From a virus, in the IMG/VR virus record IMGVR_UViG_3300018080_000230, positions 1 to 52,981 of that record: 52,981 bases of DNA; one strand, 5' to 3'. Numbering within the stretch: the first letter of the stretch is position 1; every line of letters begins with the position of its first letter. Made by a program: the position numbers and the translations under genes. Below are positions 850 through 46,340 of the stretch, piece by piece. The notes under the pieces were generated by a model. That model had not been told where the DNA came from, did no database searches, and worked only from the letters and a program-made list of their open reading frames with translations.

Positions 850-1059
850 TTATTTTAGAAACCTCTTTTTCAAAATCGCCCTCCAATCCTTTTTCACAAT
901 CATGCATTTCTTGTCCGTTTGAATTTCAATAATGATACCGTGACAGTGATTTGACATACTTCCAAACGATAGACTCTCACGATGCTTTTTTAAATTCGCT
1001 TTCTCGATGCGCTTGAGCGCACTGTCAAATTGACCGTAACTTATTATCTCGTTTTCCAT
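850..1059 (-). CDS. Hypothetical protein, 69 aa
   Basis: The frame is open two codons further, to a GTG, but AAGGGG lies six bases before the ATG at 1059, so that start is chosen. The protein is basic: a central SMSNHCHGIIIEIQTD segment is followed by a Lys/Arg-rich tail ending KKRFLK. It is the first gene downstream of the structured RNA on the same strand and may be co-transcribed with it. It does not resemble IscB, IsrB or TnpB, so it is not the usual protein partner of an omega-RNA. Confidence 0.65.
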   Translation of the reverse strand: MENEIISYGQFDSALKRIEKANLKKHRESLSFGSMSNHCHGIIIEIQTDKKCMIVKKDWRAILKKRFLK

Positions 1060-1094: not shown

Positions 1095-1490
1095 TAAAGA
1101 CTCTTGTTCAACCTGGGCTTGTCAATCCCAAGGATACCTATTGGGAAGGAAATCAAAAACGCTACCACATTCTTGATCCCCTTCCCGGTATCGGAACTTT
1201 CCCTCATCCATTCCCTGCTAAGACTTAGGCTTCTACCCCATCATCGTCTTGGCCTTTCGGCTCTTACAGCTTTCACTCCGGCCCTATACAGTAGTATAGG
1301 CCAGGGCTGGAATCCGTACTGATTCCCAGGCGGTTGGTTTCCCGCCCGGCAACCGAAGGTGGTTGCTCAACCTCACGACTCTGTTCTTATTCGGCCCCTT
1401 GGGGGGGCCCGCCTCTAACGGCTTCGTCGTGACTCATCTTTGAAAGAACGCCCGAAGGTCAAACTTGATTGAAACAGCTTCAATCATCGA
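1095..1490 (-). ncRNA. Candidate large structured RNA (about 390 nt)
   Basis: The only stretch over 300 bases in the window without a protein gene. Read on the minus strand it is dense in stems: 1426-1432/1373-1379 (7 bp, enclosing 1404-1409/1393-1398), 1361-1366/1349-1354, 1342-1346/1329-1333, 1321-1326/1309-1314, 1294-1300/1283-1289 (perfect 7 bp with tetraloop), a GCC-GAAA-GGC hairpin at 1252-1261, 1246-1250/1220-1224, and an 18-bp interrupted hairpin built from 1187-1192/1133-1138, 1180-1186/1143-1149 and 1173-1177/1152-1156. GAAA and UUCG tetraloops appear only in the minus orientation, which agrees with a TTGACA box at 1516-1521. Size and 'ornate' style recall phage RNAs such as ROOL and GOLLD, or HEARO/omega-RNA. 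I cannot assign a family, and no IscB-like gene is adjacent. Confidence 0.65.
1387..1487 (-). other. Two chained mini-ORFs at the 5' end of the RNA
   Basis: ATG at 1487 follows GGAGG by three bases and encodes MIEAVSIKFDLRAFFQR. Its TGA overlaps a second ATG (1437) encoding MSHDEAVRGGPPQGAE, ending at 1387. They could be leader peptides, or chance frames in a structured RNA. The second lies inside the outer stem, so translation would disrupt the fold. Weak evidence. Confidence 0.3.
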
Positions 1491-1493
1491 CCT

Positions 1494-1521
1494 CCTATAT
1501 ATAATATACTATATGTGTCAA
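1494..1521 (-). promoter_or_regulatory. Promoter for the structured RNA
   Basis: A perfect TTGACA on the minus strand (1516-1521) is followed by an A/T-only stretch. Candidate -10 boxes are TATAGG with 16-bp spacing (1494-1499) or TATATA with 14-bp spacing. The predicted start near 1487 coincides with the beginning of the structured region. The -35 box is strong; the -10 is not consensus. Confidence 0.55.
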
Positions 1522-1572: not shown

Positions 1573-1601
1573 TTGACACGATTCATCTAAGTTATTATAT
1601 A
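1573..1601 (+). promoter_or_regulatory. Promoter for the HNH gene
   Basis: TTGACA (1573-1578), 17-bp spacing and TATATA (1596-1601) place transcription start within about two bases of the ATG at 1610. No Shine-Dalgarno sequence is present, so a leaderless transcript is predicted. Confidence 0.6.
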
Positions 1602-1609
1602 CAGAAAAT

Positions 1610-2251
1610 ATGGAGCTTCTCAAAACCTGCTCAAGATGCAAGCTTACCAGACCGGTTTCTGAATTTACCAAGAACCGTTCTAAAAAGGATGGTCTTTCTT
1701 GTGAGTGCCGGTCATGTAAAGCAGAGTCTCAGGCAAGATATCTAAACTCTGATAAGGGCCGTAAAGCCGTCCAGAGGGCCGTTAAGAAGTACCAGGCGAC
1801 CGGTGGGGGCAAAGAGGCTTTTAATAAGGCTACGGCCAAATACTGTGCGTCTGAGCATGGAAAACGGAAGCGATCTGAATACTATTCCTTACCAGAAGTC
1901 AAAGACATGAGAAGGGACAAAGGACGGGATTATTATAAAAAACGCAAAAAAGAGCATCCCGAAAAATATCGTGCTTATTGTAAATTGAAATATGCTCTTG
2001 AAAGCGGTAAAATCAAAAAGCCGGACAAGTGCGAGGATTGTCCGGCTACTAAGAACATCCAGGCCCACCATGAAGATTACAGTAAGCCCTACAATGTAAA
2101 CTGGTTGTGTCCGAAATGCCACCGCAGACGAGACCGGGAGCGTAGGGTCAGGCTGGCTCTTTCTTCGGGCTCGGCTTCCCATCCAGGTCAGGAAGACCGC
2201 CCGGGAAAGCCCTCTCTATCAGAACCAGGCGATCCTGCAAACCTTTCGTAA
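1610..2251 (+). CDS. HNH endonuclease (homing-type)
   Basis: This is the only convincing plus-strand gene. An N-terminal zinc-binding module has CSRC (C7, C10) and C33-x2-C36 around a KKDGLS turn, a form typical of phage free-standing HNH nucleases. The middle is basic with repeated Lys/Arg-Tyr helices suited to DNA binding. The C-terminal nuclease module has C141-x2-C144, IQAHHEDYSKPYNVNWL (H153/H154 and the Asn/Asp region) and C167-x2-CH, the HNH beta-beta-alpha metal fold. The last 35 or so residues are read from the strand opposite the 3' end of the 2148-2408 gene and look like non-native run-on. Its own promoter, leaderless start and opposite orientation mark it as a late insertion. Likely function: DNA cleavage that promotes its own spread. 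Confidence 0.85.
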   Translation: MELLKTCSRCKLTRPVSEFTKNRSKKDGLSCECRSCKAESQARYLNSDKGRKAVQRAVKKYQATGGGKEAFNKATAKYCASEHGKRKRSEYYSLPEVKDMRRDKGRDYYKKRKKEHPEKYRAYCKLKYALESGKIKKPDKCEDCPATKNIQAHHEDYSKPYNVNWLCPKCHRRRDRERRVRLALSSGSASHPGQEDRPGKPSLSEPGDPANLS

Positions 2252-23993: not shown

Positions 23994-24497
23994 TTACCTT
24001 TCACGTTTATAAACCCGATATGTTCCGTTACGATAAATCAAGACAGGTCGCCTTGATTTAATGGGAAAACGAAAAATAAGCTCCCTGGCCGTGGACACAT
24101 GGATAAAATTATTATCCGGGTAAAGAATAACCTGATTGAAAAGCATATTATCAATAATCCAGTGAAACACCTTTTTGCAGTTTCTTTTAAAATTCGGAAA
24201 GGTGAAATCACACGCACCGCTTCCAATAGGATTTAATTCACACCAGAAAAAATGATCCGATGTCCGGCTGGCCGGATACTTTGCATTCCGCAGAGCTTCG
24301 TAAATAATCATATCACGAATCCCGCTTGTAACCGATATGGGTTTGTTTATAAAATCCCGTATTGGCTGCATTAACTGAATACAAAGGGTTTCCACCCCGA
24401 AGACGTTTTTATTCGTCTTCGGGATGGAATAGCCGGGAACCAAGCTGGAATGATTAAACTCATTCCAGCTAAAATTTTTCGTCAAGTCTCCCATCAT
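23994..24497 (-). CDS. M15-type peptidase (D,D-carboxypeptidase/endolysin-like), 167 aa
   Basis: Start ATG at 24497 overlaps the stop of the upstream gene (ATGATG; 24494 is possible). The sequence shows LTKNFSWNEFNHS, RDFINKPISVTSGIRD, a SDHFFW motif (H82), GSGACDF (D97) and FIHVST (H133), matching the zinc ligands H...D...H of M15_3-type peptidases. Family members cleave peptidoglycan peptides. Sitting inside the neck genes rather than next to a holin, it may be a virion-associated lysin or the main endolysin displaced from a lysis cassette. No transmembrane segment is seen. Confidence 0.75.
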   Translation of the reverse strand: MMGDLTKNFSWNEFNHSSLVPGYSIPKTNKNVFGVETLCIQLMQPIRDFINKPISVTSGIRDMIIYEALRNAKYPASRTSDHFFWCELNPIGSGACDFTFPNFKRNCKKVFHWIIDNMLFNQVILYPDNNFIHVSTARELIFRFPIKSRRPVLIYRNGTYRVYKRER

Positions 24498-29891: not shown

Positions 29892-30848
29892 TTACGTTAA
29901 AATAGTGTAAAGTTTATTTACTCTTTGTCTCTTTTTATCATTCGAGAGCATCTTAACAATTTCACTCGCAACCTTTTCGGATAAACCACGGCACTCTTTA
30001 AGATGCTTCTTAAGTTTTTTTAAGTCGCTGGTCGGTTTGTTTGTTTGATGAGAACAGATTTTACCCGATACATCATCAATGTAAGTTGAACCATCCAGCA
30101 GTTTCAGAAATTCAACGCTTGCTTTCGCAATCTCATTATTCGTGAAAGTGGTAACCTTGAGACCCTTATCAATAGATTGCTTTCTGAGCGTACCTGCCCC
30201 GGATGCTGGCATGATTGCCTGGCCGGTCTCCATTGCCTTTTCAACATCCAGGTAACAAGATGCATAATGAGGACACGACTCAGTACAGGCAATGGAAGGA
30301 TTGAATTGGCAAACACCGGCAAAAGATTTTACAATATCCACCCAGGTATTGCGATTGATCGGATGTTCCGTGATGGCAATGTTCTTGACCCACGCCTTAA
30401 CAATGCGATTGCCTTTGCGTTCCAGGGTCTTGCCCTCTACGCTTGCACCGATCCTGCGTTTTGAACCCACGGATTTAAGAACACGGAGATGCTTGATAAG
30501 CTGCTCTGCAACCGGCTTCTCATTGGACTTGTAAAGAAAACCCTTTACCAGAAGTCCGCAATAACCGGTCTTGGTATTTTTGACAAACTCATAATCGGTC
30601 GGCTCACCGATCAAATACTGAGAGCCCTTATTGTGATCGTAGTTGAAATACCCGCCTTTCATAAGATAATCCAGGATAAAACCTTCCGGCTCAACCACTT
30701 CTTCCTGGATATCCTCAACGTTGTCACCGGCCAAAAGCTTGATGAAATACTTGTTGTCATCCTCGCCACCGGATTTTTCCAGATCGGTCTCCATACCCAA
30801 AGGGATTGAGAAGTCCTGTCCTACCTTGTAGTGTTCCAGATTTTCCAT
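29892..30848 (-). CDS. Prohead maturation protease, 318 aa
   Basis: Residues 60-160 carry the protease signature: GGYFNYDHNKG (catalytic His H72) and RRIGASVEGK (catalytic Ser S136) followed by VKNIAITEHPINRNTWVDIV, close to HK97/T4-type prohead proteases. A Cys-rich segment (CTESCPHYASC) follows at about 190-200, unusual for the family and possibly zinc-binding. The C-terminal third is helical and basic. The ATG at 30848 has no Shine-Dalgarno sequence and lies directly after the T-run of a strong hairpin; a start at codon 19 also lacks one. Confidence 0.8.
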   Translation of the reverse strand: MENLEHYKVGQDFSIPLGMETDLEKSGGEDDNKYFIKLLAGDNVEDIQEEVVEPEGFILDYLMKGGYFNYDHNKGSQYLIGEPTDYEFVKNTKTGYCGLLVKGFLYKSNEKPVAEQLIKHLRVLKSVGSKRRIGASVEGKTLERKGNRIVKAWVKNIAITEHPINRNTWVDIVKSFAGVCQFNPSIACTESCPHYASCYLDVEKAMETGQAIMPASGAGTLRKQSIDKGLKVTTFTNNEIAKASVEFLKLLDGSTYIDDVSGKICSHQTNKPTSDLKKLKKHLKECRGLSEKVASEIVKMLSNDKKRQRVNKLYTILT

Positions 30849-30851
30849 AAT

Positions 30852-30908
30852 AAAAAAGCCAACCTCTATAACGTAAGGGGAATCCCTTGGTTATGTGAGG
30901 TTGGCTTT
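30852..30908 (-). terminator. Terminator/attenuator hairpin before the protease gene
   Basis: AAAGCCAACCTC (30855-30866) pairs with GAGGTTGGCTTT (30897-30908). The stem extends inward through TATAAC/GTTATG and AAGGG/CCCTT. On the coding strand it ends in TTTTTTA right at the ATG of the protease gene. Confidence 0.75.
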
Positions 30909-30995
30909 ACCCTTAGTGGAGGCTTTCGCCGTAAACCTCGCCGGTTTCCCGGCTTTATACTGGACAGGGGAATCATGGGCTAAACCATGATCCCC
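30909..30995 (-). other. Structured intergenic RNA element
   Basis: On the minus strand three hairpins precede the terminator: GGGG-ATCATGG-type stem (30967-30978 with 30985-30995), GCCGG-GAAA-CCGGC (30940-30953) and GGC-GAAA-GCC (30921-30930). Two GNRA tetraloops and a terminator downstream resemble a riboswitch or attenuator layout. No known class is recognised. Confidence 0.5.
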
Positions 30996-31046
30996 CGTTT
31001 ACGAATATTCTATTTATTTATTAAATAACTAATTTTTTCACAAAAA

Positions 31047-44345: not shown

Positions 44346-46340
44346 TTATGCGCCGAAATCGAATCCGTGAGCGTCCAGGTCTGTATCGGTAATCATCTTG
44401 ACCACCATAGCGGTCGCATCGGCCACGTCCTTTGATCCCCCTGGTGGATGGTCAACTTTATTGTGGTTTATGTCCAATAGCTGCCTTAATTCGGTTTCCA
44501 GTTTTGGATAATCCATGCATCGAAAAAGACCGCTATAAACTACCCGCCGTAAATGGACATAGAGTTGATACTGAACTTTGTTGCTGAAAAATTTCACATC
44601 GGCATCCACGCCTTCCGATTCCAACTGCTGCTTTGCCAATTCACTTTGCCAGTGGTCATACTTAATTTTTCTCATGTTTGGGAAAACCATGTTTAAGGTA
44701 CTGACCACGTTTTGAACATTGACAAAATCCACCGGTATCTTCATGCCGGATTTGTCTTTGATAGGCAGAAATTCAACAATCAGATCAATGACCGGCATGG
44801 ACAAGACTTTGAACCTGGCTGCTGCCTCGGCCAGCGTTTTATTCTGAATATCTATGCGCTCACAATACCCGCACACAAGCGCATAGGTATCCCCGCTCAA
44901 TCCTGGATCACACGCAACAAACCGGATTCTATTATCACCGATCAACTTCTCATGCGTTCCCCGGCCACGGCCAACAAATTCGCCCTTTGCATTATACGAT
45001 CCTTCGGTAATGGTACTGCGTAACTTCATGGCCTTTAATTCTTCGAGACGTTTCATTTGATCGGGAATACACATTATCCTGAAATGCTCATTGAGATCAT
45101 CCACGGTTTTTATCTTAATGCTTTCATCCAAAGGATTGACTTTAATTAAACGGTCTGAAATCATTTCTGTAAAACTGATGGCCGTATATTTCCTTACCGC
45201 AACCACCTTGTTATCTTGCTTGATAACCCTTTCCGTAATTCCCCGTTTATACTCAGCGAAAGGTTTAAGCTCTTTGTCCATGATTTCTTTTATGCGCTCT
45301 GGATGCGCTGCAAAGAAACCGGTCTCAGGGGATTTCACATTGCAGTTATACGCAACGTCCGCAAACTCTGGATCGTCATCGAATATTTGCTGCAAATCTT
45401 CCTGGGTCAGATCGTCTCGTACCTCGACCGTCCGGGCCAGGTCTGTATAAACATTGGGGTTATTGATATTAGTTTTGTACCGCTCCCACCCGTAGTCAAT
45501 GGTATCGTTATCCGGGTATGTTATCAGCATCCCGCTTCCGTATTTTTTGAAAGTCGCCTTGCAGTTTGCGATCACGGTCTTAAGCTGCGCTTTCGCTTTT
45601 TCATACCTGGGCTTTGTGTTCGCCCTGGAAATCTCATCACCTACCCAAAAGTACACATTGAATCCCTGGAAAGCATCGGCTTCTGTATTGAATGAGCATA
45701 ACCGGATATTACCTGGGATATCCATTTCCTTGGTTTTAATATCTTTGCCATCCCGGATATCCATACCTAATCTTGATTGAAACCAGTTAAGACCGGTATC
45801 CGGGTCTATACAATGCTTCAAAGTATTACAAGCATTTTTAAAAAACACCTGCCGGGCCTGGCGTTCATTCACCACGGACACATTGATAAGGTCAATGGTT
45901 CTATCCGGGGTCAGTCCGAAATATCCATGAGGATCGATGAGGCATTTAAGCTGGTATGTTTTATAAACGTAAATCCCCTCACTTAAATAATTCTTTCCCG
46001 ATCTCATGCCCCATATCAGATCGGCTTCTTGCTTTGGTGGAATAAGGGAAAACGGGTCTTCACCGCAGATGGCCAGCCCTGCTTTTCTTTGACGATCAGA
46101 TAATTTTTTGTTCAAAAACTTTCTGAAAAAATATAGAACGTCAACAGGCTCGTACCTCCAAATATCATCAAAGGTTTTTTCTTCTTCCATATATGCCTGG
46201 TCAACAACATTTATATTCCGTCCGCTCGAAGCTTGGGGATGCGCTATGCTGCCGAAGTGAGTAGGGATTACCGGTTTAATTAAAACAGATTCGATCAAAG
46301 AGTCTTCGGAAATTCCACCGGAATTTTTCAATCTTGACAT
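44346..46340 (-). CDS. Terminase large subunit, 664 aa
   Basis: ATG follows the upstream stop directly (GGATAAATG). ATPase: Walker A GMRSGKN (111-117) and Walker B with catalytic Glu, VGDEIS (233-238). Nuclease: RFVACDPGLSGD (D478) and a C-terminal GGSKDVADATA Asp, the acidic residues of the RNase H-like fold that cut concatemers. The protein packages DNA through the portal. The linker between ATPase and nuclease (about 300-450) is longer than in lambda. No terminase small subunit is recognisable in the window. Confidence 0.9.
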   Translation of the reverse strand: MSRLKNSGGISEDSLIESVLIKPVIPTHFGSIAHPQASSGRNINVVDQAYMEEEKTFDDIWRYEPVDVLYFFRKFLNKKLSDRQRKAGLAICGEDPFSLIPPKQEADLIWGMRSGKNYLSEGIYVYKTYQLKCLIDPHGYFGLTPDRTIDLINVSVVNERQARQVFFKNACNTLKHCIDPDTGLNWFQSRLGMDIRDGKDIKTKEMDIPGNIRLCSFNTEADAFQGFNVYFWVGDEISRANTKPRYEKAKAQLKTVIANCKATFKKYGSGMLITYPDNDTIDYGWERYKTNINNPNVYTDLARTVEVRDDLTQEDLQQIFDDDPEFADVAYNCNVKSPETGFFAAHPERIKEIMDKELKPFAEYKRGITERVIKQDNKVVAVRKYTAISFTEMISDRLIKVNPLDESIKIKTVDDLNEHFRIMCIPDQMKRLEELKAMKLRSTITEGSYNAKGEFVGRGRGTHEKLIGDNRIRFVACDPGLSGDTYALVCGYCERIDIQNKTLAEAAARFKVLSMPVIDLIVEFLPIKDKSGMKIPVDFVNVQNVVSTLNMVFPNMRKIKYDHWQSELAKQQLESEGVDADVKFFSNKVQYQLYVHLRRVVYSGLFRCMDYPKLETELRQLLDINHNKVDHPPGGSKDVADATAMVVKMITDTDLDAHGFDFGA

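Follow-up and report, generated by a model that had tools for sequence, protein, structure and literature searches.

Results

What is encoded by the roughly 550 bases that lie, without a convincing gene, between a divergent HNH-type endonuclease gene (1610-2251, plus strand) and a small gene on the opposite strand (850-1059, minus strand) of a phage contig? The window analysed here is the whole of the linear IMG/VR record IMGVR_UViG_3300018080_000230, 52,981 bases in length, which is probably a fragment of a phage genome. It encodes a contractile-tailed phage (myovirus), whose terminase (44346-46340), portal, major capsid, tail sheath and baseplate genes are all carried by the minus strand. 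The capsid protein has relatives in SPO1-like phages and in Herelleviridae, with about 30% identity, and it shares at most 36% identity with the closest viral contigs found. Searches through the HNH, capsid and tail proteins gave no close kin of the phage among the searchable records, a set from which very near records may be missing. Our results indicate that a stretch of about 400 nt within this gene-free region very probably makes a tightly folded RNA that heads an operon of small genes.

A strongly folded candidate RNA on the minus strand

Coding capacity offers little explanation for the stretch, as each of the three minus-strand frames across it contains 6-12 stops and the one plus-strand frame of 72 codons matched no NCBIfam family. 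Folding of the minus strand of 1085-1500 gave -165.8 kcal/mol against -126.5 +/- 6.4 in dinucleotide shuffles (z -6.2), with none of 100 shuffles as good, while the plus strand of the same interval was weaker (z -3.9). At a scale of 400 nt the stretch ranked first among 214 sampled across the window on both strands (its z of -6.4 compares with a mean of -1.0, standard deviation 1.4). The fold model of the minus strand contains about ten stems with a pair probability of at least 0.8 (Table 1), and the proposal of the preliminary description that some 390 gene-free nucleotides are well folded on this strand was borne out. At 160 nt, minus-strand sub-windows were negative over nearly all of the stretch; since similar single z values at this scale occur elsewhere in the genome, the claim of structure is based on the stretch as a whole and not on any single hairpin. 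Its GC content is 52%, compared with 40-46% in most sampled stretches.

Table 1. Predicted elements of the RNA and of its surroundings, with the basis for each
Feature	Position	Strand	Basis
Structured RNA core, best-supported extent	1098..1495	-	Fold z, window rank, helix pair probabilities
5' hairpin, 17 pairs and one bulge, GGAGGUCGAUGAUUGAA / UUCAAUCAAGUUUGACCUUC	1454..1495	-	Mean pair probability 0.98-0.99; z -4.4 alone
Helix UCACGAC/GUCGUGA around two small hairpins (1411-1422, 1393-1409)	1373..1432	-	Probability 0.98-0.99
Three hairpins abutting without linkers (1349-1366, 1327-1348, 1309-1326)	1309..1366	-	Probabilities 0.92-1.0
Hairpin GCCCUGGCCUAUAC / GUAUAGGGCCGGAGU	1275..1307	-	Probability 0.79-0.86
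GAAA loop, GCC-GAAA-GGC	1252-1261	-	
Long hairpin, 26 pairs, 20 uninterrupted including 5 G-U	1133..1192	-	Probability 1.0
Last hairpin, CUUGGG..CCCAGG, no T run after it	1112..1132	-	Probability 0.85; no terminator found there
Long-range closing helix	1440-1453 / 1098-1111	-	Mean probability only 0.62
Possible 17-aa leader peptide MIEAVSIKFDLRAFFQR after AGGAGG (3-nt spacing), within the 5' hairpin	1434..1487	-	Sequence, frame translation
TTGACA box, with a poor -10 TATAGG (4/6) at 1494-1499, spacing 16 nt	1516..1521	-	Sequence; absent from promoter-scan output
Alternative promoter-like site, TTGAGA-N18-TATAAT, 11/12	1594..1623	-	Promoter scan
Leading gene of the small-gene cluster downstream, with AAGGGG at 1065-1070 as ribosome-binding site	850..1059	-	Sequence
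Divergent HNH-type phage endonuclease gene	1610..2251	+	phrog_2340, E 9e-28; relatives about 33% identity

The long hairpin near the 3' end of the core deserves separate mention. In its run of uninterrupted pairs it surpasses every other hairpin on both strands of the window, and its G-U pairs would be C-A mismatches on the opposite strand, an asymmetry that argues for selection on the minus-strand RNA. These features bear on the possibility that the stretch has no function at the RNA level and is either a chance or relic sequence with a fortuitously stable fold or a feature of the DNA. Values of z near -5 occur in coding stretches of the genome as well (17001, 33001), and no homologue was found in any set searched, both of which would agree with such a reading. 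The rank among sampled stretches, the many independent helices, the strand asymmetry of the G-U pairs and the lack of a gene here in a compact genome stand against it, and we consider it improbable.

Finer points of the fold were less stable than its main stems. Long-range stems had been described at this locus, but the helix that would close the structure reached a mean probability of only 0.62 and was replaced once 90 nt of upstream sequence was included in the fold. GAAA and UUCG loops had been described as well; the GAAA loop stood, whereas neither UUCG string forms a tetraloop in the best model. Extending the RNA to a start at about 1587-1590, which adds a tandem repeat and a long-range closing stem, gave z -6.9, but this larger RNA is not claimed here: when the added 90 nt were shuffled, 19 of 300 versions folded equally well. 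The putative leader peptide within the 5' hairpin may be a chance reading frame.

Elsewhere in the window, a second structured stretch without a gene was observed on the minus strand at 30848-31030, with z -5.0 over 30830-30950, GAAA-loop hairpins and a 3' end in which a long hairpin and a T run resemble an intrinsic terminator; it matched no Rfam family at gathering score and nothing meaningful in phages. A separate intergenic hairpin of 16 uninterrupted pairs, perhaps a terminator, lies at 24390-24429 on the same strand.

Flanking regions

The perfect TTGACA box described upstream of the RNA makes a poor promoter: the box is paired only with a poor -10 element, is missing from the promoter scan and implies a start at about 1487, which would fall within the 5' hairpin. 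The scan reported the alternative site listed in Table 1, but it found no more sites than in shuffles, and the promoter evidence upstream of the RNA is no better than chance. Tandem copies of AATTTTCCTCACC (minus strand) were observed at about 1528-1556, between the RNA and the HNH gene. They might serve the divergent promoter region as an operator, and they could pair with positions 1195-1210 of the RNA.

On the other side, the ribosome-binding site of the first small gene lies 28 nt 3' of the last helix of the RNA core. The terminator scan scored nothing in the interval from the RNA to this gene, which starts at 1059, and burial of its ribosome-binding site in the RNA fold was not predicted. 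The product of the gene matched neither a protein family nor a phage protein. A 23-base repeat, ACYCCTTTATTAAGGTTATAGGT, containing the palindrome CCTTTATTAAGG, occurs at 827-849 and 1064-1086, each copy directly preceding the start of one of two successive small genes.

The HNH gene is, to judge from its sequence, a separate and generic phage endonuclease. Among its nearest relatives that we looked at, one interrupts a gene for DNA polymerase, three others adjoin genes for single-strand binding proteins, and none of the checked relatives has a similar RNA beside it in its annotated neighbourhood. The preliminary description had likewise seen this gene as divergent and had noted that there is no IscB-like protein; the HNH protein shows no IscB domain.

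Comparison with known RNA families

Rfam was searched over the whole window at gathering score, and at the locus also with E values up to 5 and 10, and no family matched; the locus gave only chance matches far below the cut-off, among them one to mir-4782 at the long hairpin. The covariance models of GOLLD, ROOL and OLE gave no match at gathering score or at E up to 10, and that of HEARO/omega RNA gave none at E up to 10, which rules out a recognisable member of these four families; the resemblance to ROOL, GOLLD and HEARO/omega RNAs suggested earlier was not upheld. The suggestion of an uncharacterised large structured RNA remains the best description. Computation supports a strongly folded RNA, encoded by positions 1098-1495 of the minus strand and lying outside the described families.

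Group I (RF00028) and group II intron models and retron RNA models also gave no match at E up to 10. A self-splicing intron of either group, or its relic, tied to the HNH gene was weighed as an explanation: HNH genes of the same type sit in introns of related phages, as in Bacillus phage BSP12, where DNA polymerase I is split. Yet the same Rfam search detected the divergent group I intron of BSP12 (23 bits, E 0.005), used as a positive control, and returned no intron here. The HNH gene is on the opposite strand, no split gene flanks the RNA, which lies between a divergent promoter region and an intact small gene that has a ribosome-binding site of its own, and a P7-P3-P8 reading of 1217-1253 examined by eye left the P3 strand without a partner. 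The intron reading is largely refuted and we regard it as quite improbable.

An orphan guide-type RNA (HEARO/omega RNA) serving an IscB- or TnpB-like nuclease encoded elsewhere had also been put forward, and the size of about 400 nt and an HNH gene in the neighbourhood would be in keeping with it. HEARO/omega RNAs resemble the present RNA in these same two respects, but they are expected to have IscB or TnpB encoded next to them in the same orientation; here the HNH gene lies on the opposite strand and its product shows no IscB domain. Neither a TnpB-type zinc-ribbon gene nor a reverse-transcriptase gene was present in the record, itself a fragment, and the controls of both searches worked; a search of the window for the IscB N-terminal domain was empty, as were its controls. 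Guide-like matches of the RNA to the phage's own DNA were at most 13 nt long, a length expected by chance. With no HEARO match either, a guide function is very improbable, the least probable of the explanations weighed here.

Search for homologues

Homologues of the RNA were sought by sequence, by structure and through neighbouring proteins, and none was found. Searches with blastn among phages and plasmids gave only chance matches, and so did four patterns of 16-17 bases among viral contigs, where the matches inspected were dissimilar beyond the pattern. Two single-sequence covariance models run on 50 capsid-related viral records, and one of the two run on 25 genomes, reached only chance-level scores. 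In 20 relatives, the 20 kb lying tail-ward of the capsid gene contained no RNA similar in sequence, and Rfam and tRNA scans of some of these stretches returned only a group II intron in one of them (RF02005, 138 bits, at 1027-1282 on the minus strand of the capsid-related viral contig L140).

A DNA search of about 1,040 genomes of three bacterial phyla (398, 398 and 245) returned two matches of 27 nt. The first sits in an NtrC-like reading frame and the second has nothing similar past the 27 nt; both were rejected as homologues and are best taken as chance. Because single-sequence models reach little, the missing homologues are weak evidence.

Discussion

Our analysis indicates that this phage carries a real, strongly structured candidate RNA, an orphan of a known kind to which no family is assigned. 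The reading we tentatively prefer, with a probability of roughly 0.4, is that the RNA is the 5' leader of a leftward transcript of small genes and would act in cis, on shielding of the transcript or on read-through by RNA polymerase. The transcript would begin with the minus-strand RNA and continue through the small genes at 850-1059, 603-821 and 215-517. The RNA is read as a leader because only 28 nt and no terminator precede the ribosome-binding site and because a promoter-like region lies upstream. Less firmly, the folded leader might shield the transcript, or might let RNA polymerase run on through the cluster in the manner of the HK022 put RNA. The long hairpin would be a likely processing site for RNase III, by which the leader could be cut from the message. 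Since the ribosome-binding site is free of the fold, effects on elongation, termination or RNA stability are likelier than translational gating.

Put elements are far shorter than the RNA here. The put RNA of HK022, an antiterminating leader, is a structured 5' leader before phage genes (PMC9378689), an arrangement that we propose here from position. The present RNA differs in being much larger and in having no sequence match, but its position and the absent terminator fit a put-like structured leader of a downstream operon.

The main rival to a cis-acting leader is a large phage RNA that accumulates separately and acts in trans, like GOLLD, ROOL or the RNAs of ICP1 and phage K. Such an RNA would have its own promoter, would be processed from the transcript or ended before the small genes, and may self-assemble or bind host factors. 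A separately made large RNA would look alike from sequence. The size and stem density of the RNA here, and a GC content above that of the surrounding sequence, favor this view, and large lytic phages are documented to make orphan long noncoding RNAs in abundance. In phage K the long noncoding RNA lnc001 is transcribed from an early promoter of its own (PMC9241854), and the most abundant transcript of ICP1, a phage without tRNAs, is noncoding and about 800 nt long (PMC7567579). Like these RNAs, ours occupies a gene-free stretch in a large lytic phage, and phage K belongs to Herelleviridae, the family to whose capsid proteins the one encoded here is related; they differ in that the RNAs of phage K and ICP1 were seen as transcripts, whereas ours is predicted from sequence and has no sequence match in the phage collection.

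GOLLD shares with the present RNA that it is large, many-stemmed, noncoding and phage-borne, but GOLLD RNAs often exceed 800 nt (PMC12286853), against about 400 nt here. GOLLD frequently lies near tRNA genes, which is common but not required, and no tRNA gene was found in the 53-kb window, itself a fragment. ROOL is likewise a large phage RNA without an assigned function, but the RNA here lacks both an Rfam match and a tRNA island. The 3' end without a terminator, the lack of tRNA genes in the window, the lack of any Rfam relationship and the length below that of GOLLD all count against a separately accumulating RNA, which we consider somewhat unlikely. The narrower proposal of a new class of large structured phage RNA, so far represented by a single genome and unrelated to GOLLD, ROOL or OLE, appears rather unlikely; such an RNA would be produced for its own sake during infection and would act in trans, for instance through binding of host machinery or through self-assembly.

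Several lytic phages produce abundant long noncoding RNAs that have no assigned function or family. A compact and strongly folded orphan at the head of an operon adds a defined candidate, drawn from sequence evidence, to these phage RNAs, and indicates that present RNA libraries miss at least some of the RNAs that phages encode.
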